From Paucibacter sp. DJ2R-2 (GTDB lineage: Bacteria; Pseudomonadota; Gammaproteobacteria; Burkholderiales; Burkholderiaceae_C), in assembly GCF_025717675.1 (NCBI RefSeq), contig NZ_JAJIRT010000016.1, positions 1 to 37,374 on the forward strand: a stretch of DNA of 37,374 bases. Direction: 5' to 3'. Below, one piece after another: positions 4,344-37,266 of the stretch. The stretch's first letter is position 1. Every line of letters starts with the position of its first letter. Both the position numbers and the translations under genes were made by a program. A model generated the notes under the pieces. It was given only the letters and a program-made list of their open reading frames with translations. It was not told where the DNA came from and did not search any database.

Positions 4344-5633
4344 ATGAATTGCATGGATACAGCCAGCCTCAACCCAAGCAACTCCCCCGCCCCAATAGCC
4401 TCCATCCTGCCGGCGATGTCCCTGGCCGGTGTGCGCGTGCTTGACCTCTCGCGCGTGCTGGCCGGCCCCTGGTGCACGCAAACCCTGGCCGACCTGGGTG
4501 CCGATGTCATCAAGGTCGAACGACCCGGCAGCGGCGACGACACCCGCGCCTGGGGTCCACCGTATTTGAAAGATGCCCAAGGCAAAGACACCAGCGAGGC
4601 CGCCTACTACCTGGGCGCCAACCGCAACAAGCGCTCCATTGCCATCGACATCGCTTGCAGTGAAGGTCAGGATTTGATCCGCCGACTGGCGACCCAGGCC
4701 GACGTGCTGGTCGAGAACTTCAAGGTCGGCGACCTGGAACGCTTCGGCCTTGATGCTCAAACCCTGCAGGACGCCAACCCGCGGCTGGTGGTCTGCTCCA
4801 TCACGGGCTTTGGCCAAACCGGCCCTTACCGAGACCGTGCTGGCTACGACTATGCGATCCAGGGCATGGGCGGACTGATGAGCATCACCGGCGAACGCGA
4901 CGATCGGCCGGGCGGCGGCCCACAAAAAGTCGGCGTGGCCGTGGCCGATCTCTTCACCGGGCTCTACGCCACCGTGGCCATCCTCGCCGCTCTGCGCCAC
5001 GCAGAAGCCACGGGCCGTGGTCAAGTCATCGACATGGCCTTGCTGGACACCCAGGTCGCCATGCTGGCCAATGTGGGGTCCAACTTCCTCTGCACAGGCC
5101 GTGCTCCAGGTCGCATCGGCAATGCCCACCAGAACATCGTCCCCTATCAGGTGTTCGAGGCGTCCGACGGTCATCTGATCCTGGCCGTCGGCAACGACCT
5201 GCAGTTCGCAAAGTTCTGCGACATCGCCGGCCACGCAGAATGGGCGCTGGACCCTCGCTTTGCTCGCAACAGCGACCGAGTCCGGCATCGCAGCGAGTTG
5301 GTGCCCTTGATCGAAGCCACCATGCGCAGTCGCCCGCGCGATCTCTGGCTGCGCGCCCTGGAAGCCGCCAAAGTACCCTGCGGCCCCATCAACAGCCTGG
5401 CCGAAACCTTTGCCGACCCTCAGGTGCAAGCGCGGGACACCGTCGTGCCCCTGCCTCATCCCATGAGTCCCGAACTGCGCGTGGTGGCCAACCCCATCAA
5501 GCTGTCGCTGACCCCCGTGAGCTACCGGCGGCCACCGCCGCTGCTGGGCGAACACTCGCGCGAAATCTTGCTGGAGGCCGGCTATGTCGAGGCGGAGATC
5601 GAAGCCCTGGTCGCGAGCGGGGCCGTGCGCTGA
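4344..5633 (+). CDS. CaiB/BaiF family (family III) CoA-transferase
   Basis: Family III CoA-transferases move CoA between carboxylic acids through an aspartyl thioester. The 429-residue protein has the usual opening LAGVRVLDLSRVLAGPW from about residue 27, the LGADVIKVERPGSGD loop, and the RAGYDYAIQGMGGLM motif where Asp169 is the expected catalytic residue. The length is normal for formyl-CoA transferase-like enzymes (about 400-430). The donor and acceptor cannot be read from the sequence; succinyl-CoA-dependent dicarboxylate transferases are common annotations. The start at 4344 is supported by GGAG six bases upstream; Met4 and Met25 are alternatives, and family members usually begin close to Met25. 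It is divergent from the lipoprotein gene with only 42 bp between them. Confidence 0.88.
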   Translation: MNCMDTASLNPSNSPAPIASILPAMSLAGVRVLDLSRVLAGPWCTQTLADLGADVIKVERPGSGDDTRAWGPPYLKDAQGKDTSEAAYYLGANRNKRSIAIDIACSEGQDLIRRLATQADVLVENFKVGDLERFGLDAQTLQDANPRLVVCSITGFGQTGPYRDRAGYDYAIQGMGGLMSITGERDDRPGGGPQKVGVAVADLFTGLYATVAILAALRHAEATGRGQVIDMALLDTQVAMLANVGSNFLCTGRAPGRIGNAHQNIVPYQVFEASDGHLILAVGNDLQFAKFCDIAGHAEWALDPRFARNSDRVRHRSELVPLIEATMRSRPRDLWLRALEAAKVPCGPINSLAETFADPQVQARDTVVPLPHPMSPELRVVANPIKLSLTPVSYRRPPPLLGEHSREILLEAGYVEAEIEALVASGAVR

Positions 5634-8467: not shown

Positions 8468-9475
8468 TCAGGACGCAGCCGGAGCTTCAGCGCCGGCGGC
8501 CAGCACGCCATGGGCCTGCTGGTCGGCGTGGTAACTGCTGCGCACCATGGCGCCCACGGCGGCGTGAGTGAAGCCCATCTTGTAGGCCTCTTCCTCGAAC
8601 ATCTTGAAGGTGTCCGGGTGCACATAGCGGCGCACCGGCAGGTGGTGGCCCGAGGGCGCCAGGTACTGGCCAATGGTCAGCATGTCGATGTGGTGGGCGC
8701 GCATATCGCGCATGACCTGGAGGATTTCCTCGTCCGTCTCGCCCAGACCCACCATGATGCCGCTCTTGGTCGGCACGCCGGGCACTTCTTCCTTGAAGCG
8801 CTTGAGCAGGTTGAGGCTGAACTCGTAGTCCGAACCCGGGCGCGCTTCCTTGTACAGGCGCGGCGCGGTTTCCAGGTTGTGGTTCATCACGTCCGGCGGT
8901 GCGGCCTTGAGGATGTCCAGCGCACGGTCCATGCGGCCGCGGAAATCGGGCACCAGCACTTCGATCTGGGTCGAAGGGCTGAGCTCACGCACCTTGCGGA
9001 TGCACTCGGCAAAGTGGCCGGCGCCGCCGTCACGCAGGTCGTCGCGATCCACGCTGGTGATCACCACGTACTTGAGCTTGAGCGCGGCAATGGTCTTGGC
9101 CAGGTTCTCGGGCTCGTTCACATCGAGCGGATCGGGGCGGCCGTGGCCGACATCGCAGAAGGGGCAGCGGCGGGTGCACTTGTCACCCATGATCATGAAA
9201 GTGGCCGTGCCCTTGCCGAAGCACTCACCGATATTGGGGCAGGAGGCTTCTTCGCAGACCGTGTGCAGCTTTTGCTCGCGCAGGATCTGCTTGATTTCGT
9301 AGAAACGGGTGCTGGGCGAACCGGCCTTGACGCGAATCCAGTCGGGCTTCTTGAGCGTCTCGGCGGGCACGATCTTGATCGGGATGCGCGCCGTCTTGGC
9401 CTGGGATTTCTGCTTGGCCGTGGCGTCGTACGCCTCGCCTGTCTTTGCTTCGTGAGTGATGTTCTCGGTCGCCAT
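8468..9475 (-). CDS. lipA: Lipoyl synthase
   Basis: LipA is a radical-SAM enzyme that inserts two sulfur atoms into the octanoyl chain attached to the E2 subunits and GcvH. The 335-residue protein has both iron-sulfur motifs: the auxiliary cluster [12 protein letters not shown] (Cys74, Cys79, Cys85) and the radical-[11 protein letters not shown] (Cys100, Cys104, Cys107). Further family landmarks are [31 protein letters not shown] and the C-terminal MVRSSYHA, which supplies the serine ligand of the auxiliary cluster. The N-terminus has a Lys/Ala-rich extension typical of Burkholderiales. It lies 15 bp after lipB on the same strand, an obvious two-gene operon for lipoate assembly. Confidence 0.97.
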
Positions 9476-9490
9476 GCCAGCCTCGTTTCG

Positions 9491-10159
9491 TCAACGCTCC
9501 AGCTGGGCTTGCAGCCGTTCCCCGAAGCGCTGGGCCACTTCGGGCCAATCCGCAAAAACCCCAAGTGTAACGAGGTCCACCGTGCGCAGCCCCGCATAGC
9601 CACAGGGGTTGATACCTGCGAAGGGTTGCAGGTCCATGGCCACATTGAGGGCCACACCGTGGTAGCTGCAATGGCGCGTGACCTTGATGCCCAGGGCCGC
9701 CACCTTGCCCAGGCCACGGAAGGGGTCGTCGGCCGGCGCAGGGCCGGTGAGCGCCGCATGGGCAAACGGGTCGTCCAGCCGCACATAGATGCCCGGCGCG
9801 CCGGCCACGCGATGGCCGGTGACGCCGTAGCTGTCCAGGGTCTGGATCACCGCCGTTTCCAGGCGGAACACAAACTCACGCACATAGATGCCCAGGCGCT
9901 GCAGATTGACCAGGGGGTAAGCGACCACCTGGCCGGGGCCGTGGTAGGTCACCTGGCCGCCGCGGTTGGTCTGCACCACCGGGATGCCGGCCGGGGCCAG
10001 CACATGGTCGGCCTTGCCGGCCAGGCCTTGGGTGTAGGTAGGGGGATGCTCGCAAAGCCAGAGCTCGTCTTCGGTCTCGGGCCCGCGCTGTTCGCTGAAG
10101 GCACGCATGGCGTCGACCGTCTCGGCGTAGTCGACCCGGCCCAGGTTTTTCACAATCAT
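9491..10159 (-). CDS. lipB: Octanoyl-[ACP]-protein octanoyltransferase
   Basis: LipB moves octanoate from acyl carrier protein to lipoyl domains, giving LipA its substrate. The 222-residue protein has [19 protein letters not shown] at about 65-82, the catalytic lysine in [12 protein letters not shown] (Lys152) and the catalytic cysteine in INPCGYAG (Cys186), which forms the thioester intermediate in this family. The frame remains open upstream to 10360, but ATG 10159 gives the standard N-terminus [11 protein letters not shown] and normal length; the extension would run into the divergent Sel1 gene. The stop TGA at 9491 is 15 bp from the lipA start. Confidence 0.96.
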
Positions 10160-15682: not shown

Positions 15683-16105
15683 TCAGAAGGGCTTGACGAC
15701 CACCAGGACGACGATGGCAATGAACATCAGCACGGCCGACTCGTTGAAAACACGGAACCAGCGGTGACTGCGGCGGTTGGCCGACTGCTCAAAACTGCGC
15801 AGGATGGACTTGCAGGCGTGGTGATAGCCGATCACGCCAAGCACCAGCAACAGCTTGGTGTGCATCCAACCCTGGTTGAAACCGCTGAAATTCAGCGCCC
15901 ACATCCAGCCGCCGAGAAGCAGGGCCGGGATCATCAGCAGGGTGGCAAATCGGTAGAGCTTGCGTGCCATCAAGAGCAGGCGCTCGCGCTCGGCATGGCT
16001 GTCGGCCGGCACCATGGCCAGGTTGACGAAGATGCGCGGCAGGTAAAAGAGACCGGCGAACCAGCTGGCCACGAAGACGATGTGAAAGGCTTTGATCCAG
16101 AGCAT
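15683..16105 (-). CDS. hemJ: HemJ/CopD-like protoporphyrinogen oxidase candidate
   Basis: Small membrane protein of 140 residues with four predicted helices. The opening MLWIKAFHIVFVASWFAGL, with His8, and the mid-segment MHTKLLLVLG, with Lys84, match the HemJ (UPF0093) pattern, in which a conserved His and Lys are needed for activity. HemJ oxidises protoporphyrinogen IX to protoporphyrin IX late in haem synthesis. Databases often label these proteins CopD family because of fold similarity. The assignment is strengthened by the divergent neighbour hemB, another haem gene. A candidate small RNA ends 73 bp upstream on the same strand. Confidence 0.82.
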   Translation of the reverse strand: MLWIKAFHIVFVASWFAGLFYLPRIFVNLAMVPADSHAERERLLLMARKLYRFATLLMIPALLLGGWMWALNFSGFNQGWMHTKLLLVLGVIGYHHACKSILRSFEQSANRRSHRWFRVFNESAVLMFIAIVVLVVVKPF

Positions 16106-16177
16106 CGCCGCATTATGCGTGGCGGCTTGACGCGCGCGAGGAACCGCCAGAAACGGTCGATTTCGCCGCGCGCAGAC

Positions 16178-16207
16178 AAAAAAAAGCCCCGGCCATGAAG
16201 CCGGGGC
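16178..16207 (-). terminator. Intrinsic terminator of the candidate sRNA
   Basis: An 8-bp perfect GC stem pairs 16200-16207 with 16186-16193 around a 6-nt loop, and eight T residues follow on the minus strand (16178-16185). Its orientation fits termination of minus-strand transcription, upstream of hemJ. Confidence 0.88.
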
Positions 16208-16291
16208 GAGAAAGCCTTATCGCTGTCATCACGCTAAGGCTCCTGCTCAGGGAGGAAAAGCAGGGAACGACCACCTTGCGGCTATCATTCG
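16178..16291 (-). ncRNA. Candidate sRNA with an anti-Shine-Dalgarno loop
   Basis: Read on the minus strand, this stretch has the build of a compact regulatory RNA of about 110 nt. Hairpin 1 pairs 16259-16264 with 16242-16247 (6 bp) and its 11-nt loop contains CCUCC, the complement of the GGAGG ribosome-binding core. Hairpin 2 pairs 16235-16241 with 16213-16219 (7 bp). The third element is an intrinsic terminator. An extended -10 promoter lies at the expected distance upstream. A family of toxic sRNAs with an anti-Shine-Dalgarno element has been described in Betaproteobacteria; from memory this locus resembles it, but no covariance model was run. It could instead be an attenuated leader of hemJ. 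The start is estimated from the promoter. Confidence 0.65.
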
Positions 16292-16297
16292 AAGTGA

Positions 16298-16306
16298 ATT
16301 TTAACA
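16298..16306 (-). promoter_or_regulatory. Extended -10 promoter for the candidate sRNA
   Basis: The minus strand reads TGT followed by TAAAAT (16303-16298), a TGn extended -10 element with five of six bases matching TATAAT. No good -35 box is seen at the usual distance, which extended -10 promoters tolerate. The predicted start point is near 16291. Confidence 0.5.
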
Positions 16307-16344
16307 TAAGCGTCATCCGGGGGCGCATCAGGGAAGTCGCGTAG

Positions 16345-17460
<1,116 letters not shown>

Positions 17461-17468
17461 TCCCAGGC

Positions 17469-18569
17469 ATGCGCCTGTTCCACATCCACGGCGACCAGTT
17501 CACCGAGCTGAACCAACTGCCGGCCGACTTGCCCAGCGATGGCTTCCTCTGGCTGGGCTATGGCCGGCGCGAGTTCGAACTGCAACTGGGCGAGATCCAG
17601 CAAGGCCTGCAGCGCTGGGGCTGCGGCCAAGTCGTGGACCTGCATGTCTCCGACCTGCTGAACAACCAGCTGCCCTCGCATTTCGACTACACCAGTTGGT
17701 ACGACTTGCTGGTGTTCCGACGACTGGCAGCCGCGCCTGGCCACGAGCATCTGCTCGCCGACCCGGAGCACGGCACGCTGCACAGCACCCATGAGGCGCT
17801 CAAAGCCATCGACACCAGCCCAGTGGGCTTTGCAGTCTTTGACAGAGTGCTGCTGACGGTTCACCCGACGGACTGCCTGGTGCGCGACTACTTCGCCAGC
17901 AAGATGGGCGCCCTGGCCGAAGGCCGCGATCTGCGCGGCAGCGCACGCCTGCCCAACAGCCCGGCCGAGCTGATGCTGCGCATGGTCAACCACATGGTGG
18001 ACAGCTATCTGGAGCTGCGCCGCCTGCTGACCCGGCAGATGACGGCGCTGCAGCGCACGCTGATGGACGCCAACAGCCATTTCGACGACTGGCCCCTGCT
18101 GCTCGAATCACGCGACGCCTTGCATCGGCTGGAAGACACCTGCGAGGATCAGCGCAGCGCCATCCAGGAATGGATCGACGTGCTGGACGATTGGCCCTCG
18201 GCTGAGGAACCGGCGGCACAGCGCGAGCGCGAGCTGCTGCGGGTGCGCTCACGGGATGTGCACGAGCACATCGAACGGGTGCTGGCCCATGTGCGGCGCA
18301 TGGAGTCGTCCAGCGAGTCGGCGGTGCAGATGCACTTCTCGGCCCTGGGCCATCGCACCAACTCCATCATGCGCACGCTGACCGTGCTGACCGCCATCTT
18401 CCTGCCGCTGAACCTGATCACCGGCATCTTCGGCATGAACTTCGACGGCCTGCCCCTGATCCACAAGGCCGCCGGCTTCTGGGTCGCCTTCGGCCTGATG
18501 CTGGCCGTAGGCCTGGGCCTGGGCCTGTTCTTCTGGCGCAAGCGCTATTTAGGCACGCGCCACGGCTGA
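17469..18569 (+). CDS. CorA-family magnesium/divalent cation transporter
   Basis: Membrane protein of 366 residues with the CorA plan: a large acidic cytoplasmic N-terminal domain rich in long helices (about 140-300), then TM1 (about 302-320) ending in the signature Gly-Met-Asn at 322-324, a short loop, and TM2 (about 337-355) followed by a basic tail WRKRYLGTR. GMN marks the pore entrance in this family. Substrate could be Mg2+ or, as in ZntB-like members, another cation; the sequence does not decide. The gene starts 8 bp after hemB, so translation coupling or a shared transcript is likely. It converges on ybeY with a 9-bp gap. Confidence 0.9.
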   Translation: MRLFHIHGDQFTELNQLPADLPSDGFLWLGYGRREFELQLGEIQQGLQRWGCGQVVDLHVSDLLNNQLPSHFDYTSWYDLLVFRRLAAAPGHEHLLADPEHGTLHSTHEALKAIDTSPVGFAVFDRVLLTVHPTDCLVRDYFASKMGALAEGRDLRGSARLPNSPAELMLRMVNHMVDSYLELRRLLTRQMTALQRTLMDANSHFDDWPLLLESRDALHRLEDTCEDQRSAIQEWIDVLDDWPSAEEPAAQRERELLRVRSRDVHEHIERVLAHVRRMESSSESAVQMHFSALGHRTNSIMRTLTVLTAIFLPLNLITGIFGMNFDGLPLIHKAAGFWVAFGLMLAVGLGLGLFFWRKRYLGTRHG

Positions 18570-24188: not shown

Positions 24189-24280
24189 ACGCAGAGCTCG
24201 CTGAGGACCGCAGAGAACGCTGAGACCAAAATTCCTGCCTTTCTCTCTGCGACCTCTGCGGTCCTCTGCGAACTCTGCGT
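24189..24280. repeat. Inverted repeat built of CGCAGAG-type heptads
   Basis: The left arm (about 24189-24225) contains four spaced CGCAGAG or CGCTGAG units; the right arm (about 24244-24280) contains four CTCTGCG units. The arms are near-complementary over about 37 bp with a handful of mismatches, around an 18-bp centre, so a long hairpin is possible on either strand. Similar GCAGAG-rich intergenic palindromes recur in many bacterial genomes and are often mis-annotated as small proteins with NAE-AED-RRGRREK-like translations. No function is known to me. Confidence 0.8.
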
Positions 24281-24450: not shown

Positions 24451-27400
24451 TTACTCGGCAGCCGGCTCGGCGCCTGCGTCGACGCTGGCCATCTGCGCAG
24501 AAGCCAGTTCCTCGGCTTCTTGCTGAGCAATGGCGCGGCGCTCGGCGTCGTCCATCTTCTCCTTGGCGAAGCGGGCGCGGTGGAAGGCCATGCCGGTACC
24601 TGCGGGGATCAGGCGGCCGACGATGACGTTTTCCTTCAGGCCACGCAGCTCGTCGCGCTTGCCCATGATGGCAGCCTCGGTCAGCACGCGGGTCGTTTCC
24701 TGGAAGGAAGCGGCCGAGATGAAGGAGTCGGTCGACAGCGAAGCCTTGGTGATACCCATCAGTACGTCGGAATAGGTGGCCGGAACCTTGCCTTCCTTGC
24801 GCAGACGATCGTTGGTATCGAACAGCTCCGAGCGTTCCACTTGCTCGTTGATGATGTAGCTGGAGTCGCCGGCATTGGTGATCTGCACACGACGCAGCAT
24901 CTGGCGAACGATCACCTCGATGTGCTTGTCGTTGATCTTCACACCTTGCAAACGGTACACGTCCTGCACTTCATCAACGATGTAGCGAGCCAGCTCTTCC
25001 ATGCCCAAGAGGCGCAGGATGTCTTGCGGGTCGGCAGCGCCGTCCACAATCAATTCGCCGCGGTTGACCACCTGGCCTTCGTGCACCAAGATGTTCTTTT
25101 CCTTGGGCACCAGCTCTTCGTGCTTCTTGCCATCGGGGTCGGTGATTTCCAGGCGGTTCTTGCCCTTGGTCTCCTTACCGAAAGACACCGTACCGGTCAG
25201 CTCGGCCAGCACACCCACATCCTTGGGCGAACGGGCTTCGAACAGCTCGGCCACACGCGGCAGACCGCCGGTAATGTCTCGAGTCTTCTGACCTTCCATC
25301 GGGATACGTGCAAGCACTTCACCCGGGGCCAGGTCTTGACCGTCACGCACCTGCACCAGCGCACCGACCGGGAAGCCGATCGTCACCGAGTGGTCGGTAC
25401 CAGGGATCTTCACTTCGTTGCCGTTGGCGTCGAGCAGCTTGACCTGCGGACGCACGACCTTGGCGGCGCCGCGACGCTTGGGATCGATCACCACCAGGGT
25501 GGACAGACCGGTCACTTCGTCGACCTGCTTGGCCACGGTCACGCCTTCTTCCACATTCTCGAAGCGCGCCTGACCGGCGAACTCGGTGATGATGGGGCGG
25601 GTCAGCGGGTCCCAATTGGCCAGGATGGTGCCAGCCTTGATGGCCTGATCCGGCTTAATGCTCAGGATCGCGCCGTAAGGCACCTTGTGGCGCTCGCGCT
25701 CGCGGCCATGTTGGTCAGCAATGATGATTTCGCCGGAACGCGAAATCACCACCAGCTCACCCTTGCCGTTCGTCACATAGCGCATGGTGGCGTTGAAGCC
25801 GATCAAGCCGTCGGACTTGGCGTCCACGCTCGAAGCCACAGCTGCACGCGATGCCGCACCACCGATGTGGAAGGTACGCATGGTCAGCTGGGTACCCGGC
25901 TCACCGATGGACTGGGCGGCAATCACGCCGACCGCTTCACCGATGTTGACCAGGCCACCGCGGCCCAGATCGCGGCCATAGCACTTGGCGCACAGGCCGA
26001 AGCGTGTGGCGCAAGTCAGCGGTGTGCGGACCTTGACCTCGTCGGCGCCGGCAGCTTCCAGCATGTCGAGGTTGTCCTCGTCCAGCATGGTGCCTGCGGC
26101 CAGCAGCACGTTCTGAGTCTCGGGGTGCAGCACATCGATGGCGGCCACACGACCCAGAATGCGGTCGCGCAGCGATTCGATCACTTCACCGCCTTCGACC
26201 AGGGCGCGCATGGCGATGCCGTTGTCGGTGCCGCAATCGTCCTCGATCACCACCAGATCCTGCGTCACGTCGACCAGACGGCGGGTCAGGTAACCCGAGT
26301 TCGCGGTCTTCAGCGCCGTATCCGCCAGGCCCTTACGAGCACCGTGGGTGGAGATGAAGTACTGCAACACGTTCAGGCCTTCGCGGAAGTTCGCGGTAAT
26401 CGGCGTCTCAATGATGGAGCCATCAGGCTTGGCCATCAGACCCCGCATACCGGAGAGCTGGCGAATCTGAGCGGCAGAACCACGAGCGCCGGAGTCGGCC
26501 ATCATGTAGATGGAGTTGAACGATTCTTCGTTCACTTCCTTGCCATGACGGTCGATGGTCTTCTGCTTGGACAGCTGGCTCATCATGACCTTGCCGACTT
26601 CGTCGCCGGTCTTGCCCCAGATATCCACGACCTTGTTGTAGCGCTCGCCGGCTGTCACCAGACCGGAGACGTATTGCTGCTCGATCTCTTTGACTTCCTT
26701 CTCGGCGCGGGCGATCAGCACCGGCTTTTCAGGCGGCACCAGCATGTCGTCAACCGCGATCGAGATACCCGCACGCGTGGCCAGCTTGAAACCGGATTGC
26801 AGCAGCTTGTCAGCCAGCACCACGGTTTCCTTCAGACCGCACTTGCGGAAGGAAGTGTTGATCAGGCGCGAGATTTCCTTCTTCTTCAGGGCCTTGTCGA
26901 TGTTCGAGAACGGCAGGCCCTTGGGCAGGATTTCGCTCAGCAGCGCACGACCGACGGTCGTGCTCACCAACTTGGTCTCGGGGATCCACTCGCCCTCGGC
27001 CTCGCCCTTGGTGTACTGAACCATGCGGACATTGATCTTGGCCGTGATCTCGACGGCGCCGTTTTCCAGCGCGCGGATCATTTCCGAGATGTCCGAGAAC
27101 ACCATGCCCTCGCCCTTGCCGTTGATGCGCTCGCGGGTCGCGTAGTACAGACCCAGCACCACGTCTTGCGACGGCACGATCGACGGTTCACCGGAAGCCG
27201 GGAACAGCACGTTGTTGGAGGCCAGCATCAGGGTGCGGGCTTCCATCTGCGCTTCGATCGACAGCGGCACGTGAACAGCCATCTGGTCACCGTCGAAGTC
27301 GGCGTTGAAGGCCGAGCAGACGAGCGGGTGCAGTTGGATGGCCTTGCCTTCAATCAGCACCGGCTCAAAAGCCTGGATGCCCAGACGGTGCAGCGTAGGC

Positions 27401-28671
27401 GCACGGTTCAACAGAACCGGGTGCTCCTTGATGACCTCTTCCAGGATGTCCCAGACCACGGGAGTGCCGGATTCGACTTCCTTCTTGGCGGCCTTGATCG
27501 TCGTCGCGATGCCCATGGCTTCGAGGCGCGAGAAGATGAAAGGCTTGAACAGTTCCAGGGCCATCAGCTTGGGCAGACCGCACTGATGCAGCTTCAGAGT
27601 CGGGCCCACGGTAATCACCGAACGACCGGAATAGTCGACGCGCTTACCCAGCAAGTTCTGACGGAAACGACCGCTCTTGCCCTTGATCATGTCGGCCAGG
27701 GACTTGAGCGCGCGCTTGTTGGCGCCGGTCATGGCCTTGCCGCGACGGCCGTTGTCCAGCAGCGAGTCCACGGCTTCCTGCAGCATGCGCTTTTCATTGC
27801 GCACGATGATTTCAGGGGCCTTCAACTCGAGCAGGCGAGCCAGACGGTTGTTGCGGTTGATGACGCGGCGATACAGGTCGTTCAGGTCGGAGGTCGCGAA
27901 GCGGCCGCCGTCCAGCGGTACCAGCGGACGCAGGTCCGGCGGCAGCACGGGCAGCACTTCCAGCACCATCCAGTTCGGCTTGATGCCCGAACGCTTGAAG
28001 GCTTCCATGACCTTGAGGCGCTTGGAGTTCTTCTTGACCTTGAGCTCGGAGCCGGTCATGTCGTTGCGCAAGCGATCGATCTCGACGTCGAGATCCATCT
28101 CTTCCAGCAACTTCTTGATGCCCTCCGCGCCCATCAGCGCGATGAACTCGTCACCGAATTCCACGCGCTTCGCGTCGTAGTCGTCTTCGGTCATGATCGC
28201 GAATTTCTTCAGCGGGGTCATGCCCGGATCGACGATCACATACGCTTCAAAGTACAACACGCGTTCGATGTCGCGCAGCGTCATGTCCAGCACCAGGCCC
28301 AAGCGAGAAGGCAGGGACTTCAGGAACCAGATGTGAGCGCAAGGCGCGGCCAGGTCGATGTGACCCATGCGGTCACGGCGAACCTTGGTCTGGGTGACTT
28401 CAACGCCGCACTTCTCGCAGATGACGCCGCGGTGCTTCAGGCGCTTGTACTTGCCGCACAGGCACTCATAGTCCTTGATGGGGCCGAAGATCTTGGCGCA
28501 GAACAGGCCGTCACGCTCGGGCTTGAACGTGCGGTAGTTGATCGTCTCAGGTTTCTTTACCTCGCCGAAAGACCACGAGCGAATCTTCTCGGGCGATGCG
28601 AGCCCGATCTTGATTGCGTCGAAATGTTCGTCGGGTGTGAACTGCTTGAAAAGGTCCAGCAAGCCTTTCAT
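24451..28671 (-). CDS. rpoC: DNA-directed RNA polymerase subunit beta'
   Basis: The beta' subunit carries the catalytic magnesium site of RNA polymerase. The 1406-residue protein is full length for Burkholderiales. Zinc site 1 is Cys70, Cys72, Cys85 and Cys88 ([19 protein letters not shown]). The active-site motif NADFDGD lies at 456-462, with Asp458, Asp460 and Asp462. The second zinc site includes DDCGTD and [17 protein letters not shown]. The bridge-helix/trigger-loop region ([20 protein letters not shown]) is intact. Start ATG 28671 has GGAG upstream; rpoB ends 102 bp before. The last residues are Ala/Glu-rich, as is common in the order. Confidence 0.98.
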
Positions 28672-28773: not shown

Positions 28774-31700
28774 TTAGTTGCGTTCCAACTCAATATCGAT
28801 ACCGAGCGAACGGATTTCCTTGACCAGCACGTTGAACGATTCCGGCATGCCGGCTTCGATCGTGTGCTCACCCTTGACGATGCTCTCGTAGACCTTGGTC
28901 CGGCCGTTCACGTCGTCGGACTTGACCGTCAGCATTTCCTGCAGGATGTAGGAGGCGCCATAAGCTTCCAGCGCCCACACTTCCATCTCACCGAAACGCT
29001 GGCCACCGAACTGAGCCTTACCACCCAGCGGCTGCTGGGTGACCAAGCTGTAGGGGCCGGTCGAACGGGCGTGCATCTTGTCGTCCACCAAGTGGTGCAG
29101 CTTCAGGACATGCATGTAGCCGACGGTGGTCGGGCGCTCGAAGCGCTCGCCGCTGCGGCCGTCCGACAGATAAGCCTGGGTGCGCGTGGCGGTCAGGCCC
29201 TTCTTGGCGGCGATGTCATCCGGGTAGGCCAGCTTCAGCATGGCGCGGATTTCATCTTCCTTGGCACCGTCAAACACCGGCGTCGCAAACGGCACGCCAT
29301 GGCGCAGATTGCTGGCCATTTCGAGGATCTCGTCGTCGCTCAGGTCGTCCAAATGCTCGGCCTTGCCGCCGGACTTGTTGTACAGCTCATCGAAGAACTG
29401 ACGCAGCTCGGACACGCGAGCGTGTTCCTGCAGCATGTCGCCGATGCGCTGGCCAATGCCCTTGCCGGCCCAGCCCAAGTGGACTTCCAGCACCTGACCC
29501 ACGTTCATCCGCGAAGGCACGCCCAGCGGGTTCAGCACGATGTCGGCAGGCGTACCGTCGGCCATATAGGGCATGTCTTCGATCGGAGCGATCTTGGACA
29601 CCACACCCTTGTTGCCGTGACGGCCGGCCATCTTGTCGCCAGGCTGCAGGCGGCGCTTGACGGCCAGATAAACCTTGACCATCTTCAGCACGCCAGCCGG
29701 CAATTCGTCGCCTTGCGTGAGCTTCTTGCGCTTTTCTTCAAAGCCCAGGTCGAAGCTGTGACGGGTCTGCTCCAGGGAGTTCTTGATCGATTCCAGCTGG
29801 TTGGCGACTTCGTCCTCGGCGGGACGGATGTCGAACCAATGGAACTTGTCGACGCCGGACAGATAGGCCTTGTCGATGACCGTGCCCTTGGCGATCTTCT
29901 GCGGGCCGCCGTTGGCCACGCGGCCGATCAGCAGCTTTTCGATACGGTCAAAGGCGTCGGCCTCGACGATGCGCAGCTGGTCGTTCAGGTCCAGGCGGAA
30001 GCGCTTCAGTTCATCGTCGATGATCTGCTGGGCGCGCTTGTCACGCTGGATGCCTTCGCGGGTGAAGACCTGCACGTCGATGACGGTGCCCGAGGTGCCT
30101 TGGTCGACACGCAGGGACGTGTCCTTCACGTCGGACGCCTTCTCACCGAAGATGGCGCGCAGCAGCTTCTCTTCCGGAGTCAGCGTGGTCTCGCCCTTCG
30201 GAGTGACCTTGCCCACCAGCACGTCGCCGGGGTTCACTTCGGCGCCGACGTAGACGATGCCCGACTCGTCCAGGCGAGCCAGTTGCTGCTCGGACAGGTT
30301 GGGAATGTCGCGGGTGATTTCTTCGCTGCCCAGCTTGGTGTCACGCGCGTTGACCACCAGTTCCTCGATGTGGATCGAGGTGTAGCGGTCTTCGGCGATC
30401 ACGCGTTCGGAGATCAGGATCGAGTCTTCGAAGTTGTAGCCGTTCCAGGGCATGAAGGCGACCAACATGTTCTGGCCCAGCGCCAGTTCACCGATGTCGG
30501 TAGAGGCACCGTCCGCGATGATGTCTTCAGCCGCCACATGGTCACCGCGCTTGACGATCGGGCGCTGGTGAATGTTGGTGTTCTGGTTGGAACGCTGGTA
30601 CTTGATCAGGTTGTAGATGTCGACGCCGACTTCACCGGCCACGGTCTCCGCGTCATTGACGCGAATCACGATACGGTTGGTGTCCACGTAGTCCACGATA
30701 CCGCCGCGGCGAGCTGCCACCACGGTGCCCGAGTCCTTGGCCGCCACGCGCTCGACACCGGTACCCACCAGGGCCTTTTCGGGGCGCAGGATGGGCACGG
30801 CTTGACGTTGCATGTTGGCGCCCATCAGTGCGCGGTTCGCATCGTCGTGCTCCAGGAAGGGCACGAGCGAGGCGGCAACCGACACGATCTGGGTCGGAGC
30901 CACGTCCATGTACTGGATGCGCTCGGGCGAGGTCAGCACCGATTCACCGTTTTCACGGGCCGAGACCAGCTCGTCGATCAGCGCGCCTTCCTTGCTCAGC
31001 GAGGCATTGGCCTGAGCGATGACGTACTTGCCTTCCTCGATGGCGGACAGGTAGTCGATCTGCTTGGTGACCTTGCCTTCAACCACGCGGCGATACGGCG
31101 TTTCCAGGAAGCCGTACTCGTTCAACTGAGCGTACAGCGCCAGGGAATTGATCAGACCGATGTTCGGGCCTTCCGGCGTTTCGATCGGGCAGACGCGGCC
31201 GTAATGGGTGGGGTGCACGTCCCGGACTTCGAAGCCGGCACGTTCGCGAGTCAGACCGCCCGGGCCCAGGGCGGAAACACGACGCTTGTGCGTGATTTCC
31301 GACAGCGGGTTGGTTTGGTCCATGAACTGCGACAGCTGCGAGGCACCGAAGAATTCCTTCAGTGCAGCCGAGATCGGCTTGCTGTTGATCAGGTCATGGG
31401 GCATCAGGGCTTCGGTCTCGGCCTGGCCCAGACGTTCCTTGACGGCCTTTTCGATACGAGCCAAGCCCGAGCGGTACTGGTTTTCGGCCAGTTCGCCCAC
31501 GCAACGCACGCGACGGTTGCCCAAGTGGTCGATGTCATCGACTTCGCCGCGGCCATTGCGCAGCTCGACCAGGATCTTGACGACGTCCAGGATGTCCTCG
31601 TTGGACAGCGTCATCGCGCCTTCGGGCGTGTCGCGGCCAGCACGGGCGTTGAACTTCATCCGGCCCACGCGCGACAGATCGTAGGTATCGGCGTTGTAGA

Positions 31701-32895
31701 ACAGGCGGTTGAACAGAGCCTCGACGGCGTCTTCCGTCGGCGGCTCGCCGGGGCGCATCATGCGGTAGATGGCGACGCGGGCAGCCAGCTGGTCGACGGT
31801 TTCGTCGGTGGCCAGGGTTTGGCTGATGTAGGCGCCTTCGTCCAGTTCATTGGTGAACAGGCACTGCACGTCCTTGATGCCAGCCGAGCGCAGCTTCTTC
31901 AGCAGCGCATCGGTCAGCTCGTCATTGGCCTTGGCGATGATCTCGCCGGTGTCGCCGTCGACCATGTTCTTGGCCAGCACTCGGCCGAGCAAGAAGTCTT
32001 CGGGCACGGTGACGTGCTGAGTGCCGGATTGCTCCAGCTGGCGGGTGTGGCGCGCGGTGATGCGCTTGTCCTTCTCGACGATGACCGCACCGCTCTTGTC
32101 GGTGATGTCAAAGCGAGCGACTTCGCCCTTCAGGCGGTCGGCCACGAATTCCATCTGCGCACCCACGTCCATCAGACGGAAGTTGTCGAAGACGAAGAAG
32201 TGGGCCAGGATCTGCTCGGGGTTCAGGCCGATGGCCTTGAGCAGGATGGTGACCGGCATCTTGCGGCGGCGGTCGACACGGAAGAACAAGATGTCCTTGG
32301 CGTCGAATTCGAAGTCCAGCCACGAGCCGCGGTAAGGAATGATGCGGGCCGAGAACAGCAGCTTGCCGGACGAGTGGGTCTTGCCCTTGTCGTGTTCGAA
32401 GAACACGCCGGGCGAACGGTGCAGCTGCGAGACGATGACACGCTCAGTGCCATTGACGATGAAGGAACCATAGTCGGTCATCAGGGGCACTTCGCCCATG
32501 TAGACCTCTTGTTCCTTGATTTCCTTGACGGTCTTCGCCTGGGGCGATTCACGGTCATAGATGATCATCTGCAGGCGCGCACGCACGGCGGCTGCATAGG
32601 TCAAGCCCCGCTGCTGACACTCACGGGTGTCGAACGGCGGCTTGGCGATGTTGAATTCGAGGAATTTCATTTCCACGAAACCGTTGTGCGAAACAATCGG
32701 GAACGCGGAAAGGAAGGCTGCCTGCAGGCCTTCGGCCTTGCGTTTGGCGGGGGGAACGTCCTTTTGCAGGAAGGCCACATAGGCCTCTTTCTGCATGGTG
32801 AGCAAATAGGGAACGTTGAGAACGCTCTCGCGCTTGCCGAAGCTCTTGCGAATCCGCTTGCGCTCGGTATAGCTATAGGGGGTTGCTTGCGCCAT
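28774..32895 (-). CDS. rpoB: DNA-directed RNA polymerase subunit beta
   Basis: The beta subunit forms much of the active-site cleft and the rifampicin pocket. The 1373-residue product begins [20 protein letters not shown]. The frame is open to 32919, but ATG 32895 gives the standard N-terminus and has GGAG seven bases upstream. The rifampicin-binding cluster reads [20 protein letters not shown] and continues [16 protein letters not shown]; it carries no obvious resistance substitution compared with the E. coli pattern. Other landmarks are [25 protein letters not shown] and the C-terminal [15 protein letters not shown] 424-bp intergenic region with hairpins separates it from rplL. Confidence 0.98.
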
Positions 32896-33319
32896 AAACA
32901 CTCCGTGTCGAGAGCCCACCCCTGGCCGTGGGACGGGCTTCGTCGGCGACTGGCTTCACGAGCCACATCCAGAACGGATGGCTCGATGCTTGGTGGTTGG
33001 CCACTACCAACCGCTGGCGGACAACCCTGGCATTGCACCTGGGCCCGACCAAACCGGATCTCTGCAGTCGGATCAGAGAACACTTGAAAGAACCGCGCAT
33101 CATACCTCGCGCGAAGCTTTCAACTATTCTCAACAGGACTAACCCCTAAAACAGCAAAAGGGGGAGGTCCGTAGACCTACCCCTTTCAGGTTTTGACCGA
33201 AGCTTTTTGCTGCTTGCCAGCATCCCCAAGACCTCGTCAGGCGGGACATCAACAAGAGCGCAGAGCCGGTCGCTACCGGGTCAACGGGGGAAGGCTGCAA
33301 AGCCCGCCCCCTGAGCCAA
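32896..33319 (-). promoter_or_regulatory. rplL-rpoB intergenic leader with hairpins
   Basis: No gene is supported in these 424 bases. On the minus strand there is a strong hairpin near the rplL side (33157-33186, listed separately) and smaller ones nearer rpoB, such as GGTTGG/CCAACC around 33000 and a bulged GAGCC/GGCTC stem around 32960-32985. A TATGAT hexamer occurs around 33100 on the minus strand without a well-placed -35 box. In E. coli the equivalent interval holds an attenuator and an RNase III site that lower rpoBC expression relative to the ribosomal proteins; a similar role here is inferred. Confidence 0.5.
33157..33186 (-). terminator. Attenuator-like hairpin between rplL and rpoB
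   Basis: Left arm 33157-33169 and right arm 33174-33186 pair over 12 bp with one internal mismatch and a 4-nt loop; the outermost pairs are AAA/TTT. On the minus strand it is followed by a broken T-rich stretch (TGCTGTTTT), which fits partial and not complete termination, as expected within an operon that must continue into rpoB. Confidence 0.6.
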
Positions 33320-36658: not shown

Positions 36659-37042
36659 TCAACGCTTCCAGCCCAGAATCAGGTCATAGATGACCCACTC
36701 CAGGGTCTTGTCCGTGATCCACAAGAACAAGGCCATGACCACGACGAAGGCAAACACATAGCCGGTCATCTGGCGCGCTTCTTTATGCGTCGGCCAAACC
36801 ACCTTGCGCACTTCGCGCGAGGAGTCGCGGCCGTAGGCGATCAAGGATTTGCCGGTTTCGGAGGTGAAGAAAGCCGCCAAAGCTGCCGCCAACAACACCA
36901 GCAAAGCACCCCACTGAACCCACTGACCTTGCTTGGCCAGACCGTAATAGGCCACCAAGGCAGCAACCAGCAGCAGCGCAGCAACACCCAGCTTCGCCTT
37001 GTCGGCGCTGGTGGTCACGGTTTCGACTTGAGGATTCGACAT
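36659..37042 (-). CDS. secE: Preprotein translocase subunit SecE
   Basis: SecE clamps SecY in the inner-membrane translocon. The 127-residue product, starting MSNPQVETVTTS at ATG 37042, has three membrane segments (about 18-35, 43-59 and 93-112), the E. coli-like long form. The conserved cytoplasmic motif before the last helix is SSREVRKVVWPTHKEARQMT. The frame extends to 37078, but that would add a non-family N-terminus. Located between tRNA-Trp and nusG, the usual position. Confidence 0.95.
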   Translation of the reverse strand: MSNPQVETVTTSADKAKLGVAALLLVAALVAYYGLAKQGQWVQWGALLVLLAAALAAFFTSETGKSLIAYGRDSSREVRKVVWPTHKEARQMTGYVFAFVVVMALFLWITDKTLEWVIYDLILGWKR

Positions 37043-37190
37043 TGATTCAGTTCCATGCAGAGGCTTGCGACTCTGCATTCAGCATTTCGGTTTGGCGGTG
37101 GCGATACCCACCAGCAGCAAAGCCCGCCGGGATGCACTCCCGCGGGCCGATGTCTGGACCAACAAACCAACTTCCGCAATCAGCGGTAGT

Positions 37191-37266
37191 TGGCAGGGGC
37201 AGAGGGTCTCGAACCCCCAACCTTCGGTTTTGGAGACCGACGCTCTGCCAATTGAGCTATGCCCCT
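37191..37266 (-). tRNA. trpT: tRNA-Trp (anticodon CCA)
   Basis: The 76-nt minus-strand sequence folds as a complete cloverleaf: acceptor AGGGGCA with TGCCCCT, discriminator G and an encoded CCA end; anticodon loop CTCCAAA with anticodon CCA at 37231-37233; T-loop GTTCGAG context. It lies between tuf and secE, the classical betaproteobacterial location for tRNA-Trp. Confidence 0.97.

Follow-up and report, generated by a model that had tools for sequence, protein, structure and literature searches.

An anti-hemB small RNA gene of Paucibacter, with a suggested kinship to ErsA and sX13

The stretch of DNA analysed here, a window of 37,374 nucleotides from Paucibacter sp. DJ2R-2, carries on its minus strand a small RNA gene which is this organism's copy of the known anti-hemB family (Rfam RF02837) and not a new RNA. 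What is new lies in the wider picture of the family, which suggests a kinship of anti-hemB with ErsA and sX13, and in the promoter and neighbouring genes that distinguish the organism's own family. We consider it probable that this copy is a trans-acting repressor pairing its loop with ribosome-binding sites, probably assisted by Hfq, and that it descended with ErsA and sX13 from an envelope-stress small RNA of the polA-engB region before moving to a housekeeping-type promoter. Family membership, loop conservation, covariation, synteny and the distribution of promoter motifs were all computed, and they are presented first.

The small RNA gene and its structure

The predicted transcript is approximately 114 nt long (about 16291 to 16178, minus strand), its 5′ end being placed from an extended -10 promoter element, TGTTAAAAT, read in the sequence at 16298..16306 of the same strand. 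Four structural elements follow one another along this RNA. A 5′ hairpin (16265..16290) lies outside the Rfam model, and the corresponding helix covaries in an order-level alignment of relatives. Next comes a central hairpin (16242..16264), CCUGCUU-UUCCUCCCU-GAGCAGG, recovered both by folding and by covariation, and presenting the loop UUCCUCCCU (16249..16257) with its anti-Shine-Dalgarno motif CCUCC, which is conserved in homologues. A second hairpin (16213..16241), identified by folding and by the order-level alignment, is longer than in most relatives of the order. The RNA ends at a Rho-independent terminator (16178..16207), made of a 9-bp GC-rich stem (16207-16186) followed by eight T (16185-16178), which was detected by folding and by a terminator scanner that returned two overlapping matches at the end of the small RNA, for a mean of 0.5 in shuffled sequences. 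Folding of 16291-16178 gave -55.0 kcal/mol, against -36.4 +/- 3.2 kcal/mol for shuffled sequences (z -5.75), and none of 200 shuffles was as stable.

The first-pass annotation had proposed a minus-strand small RNA gene of its own with a CCUCC loop, and this is confirmed both by the stability of the fold and by a match of 66.6 bits to RF02837. Its account of the hairpins was correct save for stem lengths and for the 5′ hairpin (16290-16265), which it missed: the CCUCC hairpin is present but has a stem of 7 bp and a loop of 9 nt, where 6 bp and 11 nt had been given, and the GC stem with eight T counts 9 bp rather than 8. A minus-strand open reading frame of 101 aa that runs across the RNA (16113-16418) was not counted as a gene, because homologous regions vary in length and carry conserved RNA structure.

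The remainder of the window contains features unrelated to this RNA. The minus strand holds ordinary rpoC (24451-28671) and rpoB (28774-32919) genes, identified with Pfam; further upstream lie SecE (36659-37078) and a gene for a tRNA (37194-37266). Downstream of rpoC, an inverted repeat of 86 bp (24192-24277) scored 30.3 and 27.1 bits on its two strands with a plant microRNA model whose cut-off is 70; a long palindrome of this sort probably matches by chance.

Identity with the anti-hemB family

In a scan of the window against the whole of Rfam, the match to RF02837 covers 16266-16178, spans model positions 1-81 of 81 and, with E = 1.3e-13, stands above the gathering cut-off of 49.5 bits. It is the only RF02837 match above cut-off in the 5.8-Mb genome. 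The adjoining divergent hemB that goes with the family is found here as well (16426-17460, plus strand). A match of the Rfam ncS025 model to the same stretch (33.0 bits for a cut-off of 46) was taken as a cross-match. A search of plasmids returned a single record, from Ideonella dechloratans, covering 43% of the query with 81.0% identity.

A published member of the family is ncS04 of Burkholderia cenocepacia, a 105-nt RNA which, in the sections available of its description, is identified as anti-hemB, with a 3′ end established by RACE and dRNA-seq, and is seen on Northern blots (PMC5688073). Its start was mapped, and it co-purifies with or binds Hfq, according to the accessible passages of two reports (PMC5688073, PMC4603805). 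The same passages of the first report mention qPCR in seven tested conditions with no significant change, a result which does not speak for stress control (PMC5688073). For B. pseudomallei, too, anti-hemB was predicted to act in trans, as the available part of PMC3521395 has it. With Burkholderia RNA 7 / ncS04 the window RNA shares a score above cut-off over the full model, a divergent hemB, the CCUCC loop and the terminator. It differs in its other neighbour: in B. cenocepacia one flanking gene is divergent and the second convergent, as stated in the portion seen of PMC4603805, while here the second is a co-directional HemJ-like gene. The published accounts, in the parts accessible to us, give expression and Hfq binding, and no proven target for anti-hemB was found in them.

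Distribution and conservation

RF02837 is widespread around the window's lineage. It was matched in 48 of 59 relatives at E<=1e-3 (45 above cut-off), in 206 of 300 genomes of the order at E<=1e-6 (190 above cut-off) and, at this same threshold, in 71 genomes of a class sample of 274, of which 14 were above cut-off; the 71 include the own genome and one member of its family, the sample itself taking in the own genome and two genomes of that family (G083 and G127). Fourteen well-known genomes used as controls gave three matches at E<=1e-3, none at 1e-6 and none above cut-off.

For closer comparison we collected 106 loci, which are the matches listed or fetched and not all matches, so that high-scoring ones are over-represented. 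The window locus is counted once, 105 loci are distinct, three (L042, L054 and L055) are second copies in a genome, and none was dropped. The loop CCUCCCUGA (CCTCCCTGA) is exactly conserved in 94 of these 106 homologues and begins with CCTCC in 102, counts that should be taken as upper bounds since selection by the model favours the loop. The stems tell a similar story. In an alignment of 24 class sequences, 16 of 24 pairs show changes on both sides, with a covariation score of 0.413 where shuffles gave 0.193 +/- 0.014 and structures slid along the alignment reached at most 0.111. Seven of these pairs belong to the 5′ helix, seven to the terminator helix and two to the central stem, which yields so few because it hardly varies. 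At the level of the order, 40 aligned sequences show at least one change on both sides in 21 of 25 pairs. Both the compensatory changes and the conserved loop on which the first-pass annotation had made its reading depend are thus present in relatives, and loop and stems are conserved whatever the neighbouring genes.

The number of hairpin loops bearing a run of C was judged by folding single sequences. One was counted at 27 of the 32 own-family loci, two or three at 28 of the remaining 46 in the order, and three or four at 15 of the 28 in the class, with the reservation that C-run loops in terminators are under-counted because the folded segments of some loci end before the terminator. One genome of the own family (G268) has five anti-hemB matches. 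Three of them lie on a single stretch (L138, G268:C10), at 4445-4529, 17993-18078 and 18177-18258, two being in tandem; hemB, hemJ, polA and engB were not found in the 19.9 kb of this stretch.

Gene neighbourhood

The small RNA gene of the window stands between hemB and a HemJ-like gene. The divergent neighbour, on the plus strand at 16426..17460 with a tentative start codon, is hemB, encoding porphobilinogen synthase (NF006762, 517.9 bits for a cut-off of 297), and its frame, on the strand opposite to the RNA, opens some 135 bp away from the point where the transcript is predicted to begin. Downstream by 72 bp, and co-directional, lies a gene of the UPF0093 type (15683..16105, minus strand; Pfam PF03653, 144.9 bits) that we may tentatively label HemJ-like, its score with the NCBIfam HemJ equivalog being 107.6 bits, under the cut-off of 138.05.

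Synteny was counted at the 106 loci with about 1.5 kb of flank each (+ denoting co-directional with the RNA, - the opposite direction): the order hemB-/engB- was found at 36 loci, hemB-/hemJ+ at 28, polA+/engB- at nine, polA only at six, engB- only at nine, engB+ upstream at six, hemB only at two, hemJ only at one, and none of these genes at nine. A HemJ-like neighbour was seen in the window's family alone, where it accompanies 29 of 32 loci. Of the two upstream partners hemB is one, the other being polA, which more distant relatives have in that place; the widely shared neighbour is engB. Among the class loci polA or engB is nearby in 22 of 28, in every case with polA+ on the upstream side or engB- on the downstream side, and hemB was seen at 0 of 28; of the six remaining loci, viewed with wider flanks, one showed engB at about 4 kb and five showed none of these genes. 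A functional linkage of the RNA with hemB and hemJ, which had been inferred earlier from the window, is therefore not supported. The sole engB match of the window's own genome lies on another contig (L282, G000:C1:367759-368358), unlike what is seen at many loci of the order.

A second collection of loci was obtained from named organisms with a search pattern that itself demanded the loop and a second C-run, 80 being listed out of 94 stretches. Among these 80, polA+/engB- was found at 28 and hemB-/engB- at 20, and polA, hemB or engB at 72; at two of the 72 the place and direction of polA are reversed. The organisms represented include Ectothiorhodospira and Thioalkalivibrio, with polA, and Rhodocyclus and Thauera, with hemB. 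The identity of representative query proteins as PolA and EngB/YihA was checked afterwards.

The polA-engB interval is a familiar address for small RNAs. In Escherichia coli the order is polA+ / spf+ / yihA(engB)-; ersA sits in the polA-engB gap, in the account available to us in part (PMC8575079), and sX13 downstream of polA, as the consulted sections of PMC3771888 describe.

Promoters

A promoter scan upstream of the window RNA found no sigma-70 site with both hexamers, and we accordingly consider its promoter as an extended -10 element only. In many relatives we see another type of signal, GAAC[TC]-N16-19-TC[TAG]NA, which we take to be a form of the promoters recognized by sigma-E/AlgU. We counted both patterns in the 106 loci and in 78 of the 80 named loci (the other two having fewer than 60 bases upstream), with families assigned by the kinship of the relatives and order genomes, and with an expectation derived from 20 shuffles of each sequence. 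Of the 46 order loci that do not belong to the window's family, 34 have the sigma-E-type pattern upstream of the loop (0.40 expected), a count which is not an independent test because the pattern was chosen after part of the order's upstream sequences had been viewed; those of the named loci and of ErsA were viewed only after that choice. The pattern is found at 14 of 28 class loci (0.30 expected), at 54 of 78 named loci (0.45 expected) and at the ErsA locus; it was not found at two sX13 loci, nor at any of the 32 loci of the window's family (0.35 expected). The extended -10 element has a quite different distribution, as it precedes the RNA at 19 of the 32 own-family loci (0.60 expected) and, elsewhere, at none of 46 order loci, one of 28 class loci and none of 78 named loci. 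The best-scoring order loci, L058 and L059, do not display the sigma-E-type pattern; L074, from the same group of large genomes, fits it.

Kinship with ErsA, sX13 and Spot 42

A profile built from distant members of the family, R1, allowed us to look at this kinship from the other end. It comprises 24 class sequences, all 24 with polA or engB near, and neither the window nor any true sX13 or ErsA gene went into it. Its training set does contain sequences that match the sX13 model below cut-off (three copies of genome G503, one of G415 and one of G565) and one copy with a match of 37.1 bits to the ErsA model. On the window RNA R1 scores 56.5 bits, the best of the own genome, the next best match there reaching 23.7 bits, and it finds matches in 140 of the 274 class-sample genomes at E<=1e-4, the own genome included. 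Twenty further matches outside the training set, chosen by hand and not at random (64.7 to 42.7 bits), all had polA or engB within 3 kb once E. coli PolA and YihA had been added as queries: 14 as polA+/engB-, four as engB- only, one as polA only and one as engB+ upstream. True sX13 genes scored 30.1 and 28.5 bits with R1, and a true ErsA gene 29.2 bits, modest values that exceed the own-genome background maximum of 23.7 bits; when R1 was run on whole genomes of the class under strict filters, the sX13 genome G345 was listed with no match at E<=1e-4, and neither the sX13 genome G497 nor the ErsA genome G494 figured among the matches. Spot 42 was not found with R1.

One class genome deserves a description of its own. 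At about 9135-9909 of one of its loci (L135, G503:C33), four small RNA copies stand in tandem between polA and engB. They score 35.9-41.8 bits with RF02837; one reaches 48.3 bits with the sX13 model, the others 28.4-29.8, and one 37.1 bits with the ErsA model, all below cut-off. The alpha-r14 Rfam model also matches these copies in part, again below cut-off. This four-copy locus may possibly be an evolutionary intermediate.

The likeness to ErsA (RF01719, Pseudomon-1) resides in the polA-engB gap, with polA upstream, as in distant relatives matched by RF02837 or R1, in a promoter of the sigma-E type, as in anti-hemB relatives, in a C-rich loop, and in the R1 score given above. ErsA differs in having a long C-run loop in its terminator hairpin (at the one ErsA locus examined), while the window RNA lies beside hemB and a HemJ-like gene instead of between polA and engB, and lacks the sigma-E promoter. 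With sX13 of Xanthomonadaceae (RF02232) the shared traits are a location downstream of polA and stem-loops that bear C-rich motifs at the apex. For sX13, experiments showed pairing with G-rich motifs close to ribosome-binding sites, in the sections consulted of PMC3771888, whereas in the window RNA such pairing would be expected by analogy; moreover sX13 has three C-rich apical loops as against one here, is Hfq-independent, and has no sigma-E pattern at the two loci inspected. Spot 42 (RF00021) shares with distant relatives of the window RNA the order polA+ / sRNA+ / yihA(engB)-, yet has no profile similarity to R1; its control by CRP and its target galK are published, as partial accounts indicate. 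None of the models RF01719, RF02232 and RF00021 matched the window at E up to 1 or the own genome at E<=1e-4, and RF00021 matched 0 of the 274 class-sample genomes at E<=1e-4, while matching its E. coli control.

Taken together, these observations suggest that the anti-hemB RNA is a betaproteobacterial relative of ErsA, rewired to a different promoter in the window's lineage. Going further, we lean towards the view that anti-hemB, ErsA and sX13 are one orthologous polA-engB small RNA, ancestrally under an envelope-stress sigma factor; hemB would have replaced polA in Betaproteobacteria, and the own family would then have left engB, exchanged sigma-E for the extended -10 element and kept one of several C-rich loops, the targeting loop staying fixed. 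Among the open-access papers listed, and in the passages seen of them, we found no link between anti-hemB and ErsA or sX13, and a search for a sigma-E small RNA of Burkholderia returned no paper.

Proposed mode of action and rival readings

Pairing with ribosome-binding sites, dependence on Hfq, the direction of evolutionary change, regulation and all targets are what we infer from this body of comparisons. The RNA would act in trans, by base-pairing, probably with the help of Hfq. Its exposed and nearly invariant loop, CCUCCCU, could pair with G-rich Shine-Dalgarno regions in a restricted number of mRNAs, whose translation this would block. A loop that repeats the anti-Shine-Dalgarno core and remains nearly fixed while so much else changes is what one would expect if it pairs with many ribosome-binding sites. 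Precedent comes from sX13, whose C-rich loops repress mRNAs with G-rich motifs near the start, as mutations in loop and targets showed, in the sections seen of PMC3771888. The same sections describe sX13 as Hfq-independent, so that use of Hfq cannot be assumed across the lineage (PMC3771888). The pattern CAGGGAGG-N3-9-ATG has 22 sites in the genome, 12 of them with a frame of at least 60 aa, for one site of the reversed pattern; no common theme was seen among the 22, and this list is not evidence, because ribosome-binding sites are G-rich anyway and the excess is mostly made of ordinary ones. As for ancestry, synteny, the type of promoter found in relatives and the likeness of the profiles argue for common descent with ErsA of Pseudomonas and sX13 of Xanthomonas from one polA-engB small RNA, probably governed by an envelope-stress sigma factor of the sigma-E/AlgU type. 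In the own family the gene would have come to lie between hemB and the HemJ-like gene, with an extended -10 element at 19 of 32 loci and mostly one C-rich loop left.

It has to be asked whether the loop might signal something blunter. The first-pass annotation had thought of the betaproteobacterial toxic sRNA family (RF02278), whose members would block translation broadly and slow growth. The idea of a CU-rich loop complementary to ribosome-binding sites is common to both; the RF02278 RNAs of B. cenocepacia are predicted to pair with such sites, and over-expression of one of them, ncS27, slows growth, in the accessible text of PMC5688073. One RF02837 copy of G268 scores 27.8 bits with RF02278, and R1 gives 16.4 and 13.6 bits on the two RF02278 genes of the own genome. 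These two genes (L114 and L115, on contigs C34 and C29 of G000) pass the cut-off of 50 with 60.3 and 51.6 bits, while the window locus obtains 20 bits, so that membership is rejected and we regard this reading as barely credible. An action in cis, as leader or attenuator of the HemJ-like gene or as antisense regulator of hemB, might be invoked from the nearness of both genes, the former following in the same direction and the latter starting close to the predicted 5′ end. We rejected both forms on synteny and hold them to be very improbable: the downstream gene is engB, in the opposite direction, at 54 of the 106 loci, hemB was seen at the side of none of the 28 class loci, the Burkholderia gene has one divergent and one convergent neighbour (in the part available of PMC4603805), loop and stems are kept regardless of neighbours, and the RNA ends at a strong terminator.

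A more serious competitor for the evolutionary part of our reading considers the polA-engB gap as a hot spot, where anti-hemB, sX13, ErsA and Spot 42 would have arisen independently, each with C-rich loops. The lack of profile similarity between Spot 42 and R1, the R1 scores of sX13 and ErsA, only 28-30 bits, and the general resemblance of structured, GC-rich RNAs with C-rich loops speak in its favour, as does the statement of the sX13 authors, in the sections seen, that they saw no resemblance in sequence between sX13 and either Spot 42 or the alpha-r7 RNAs (PMC3771888). The intermediates nevertheless point the other way, as the tandem copies of G503 are matched, below cut-off, by the RF02837 and sX13 models and, for one copy, by the ErsA model, and so do the promoter type and spacing common to ErsA and many anti-hemB relatives. 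We therefore deem independent origin unlikely, and retain common descent from a polA-engB small RNA as the preferred reading.

Significance

If anti-hemB is the counterpart of ErsA and sX13, then what is attached to these RNAs, namely pairing with ribosome-binding sites, porin and envelope targets, and control by sigma-22 (published for ErsA, as partial accounts have it), becomes a set of hypotheses for Betaproteobacteria. The finding also bears on a question which the sX13 authors raise in the consulted portion of their article (PMC3771888), namely whether other bacteria, too, have RNAs of this kind at their polA locus. The promoter difference seen in the window's own family makes the regulatory rewiring of a conserved small RNA testable across sister families. 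If this view is true, the anti-hemB RNA of this family would be a stress RNA of ancient origin that has changed over to a housekeeping-type promoter and kept its targeting loop unaltered.
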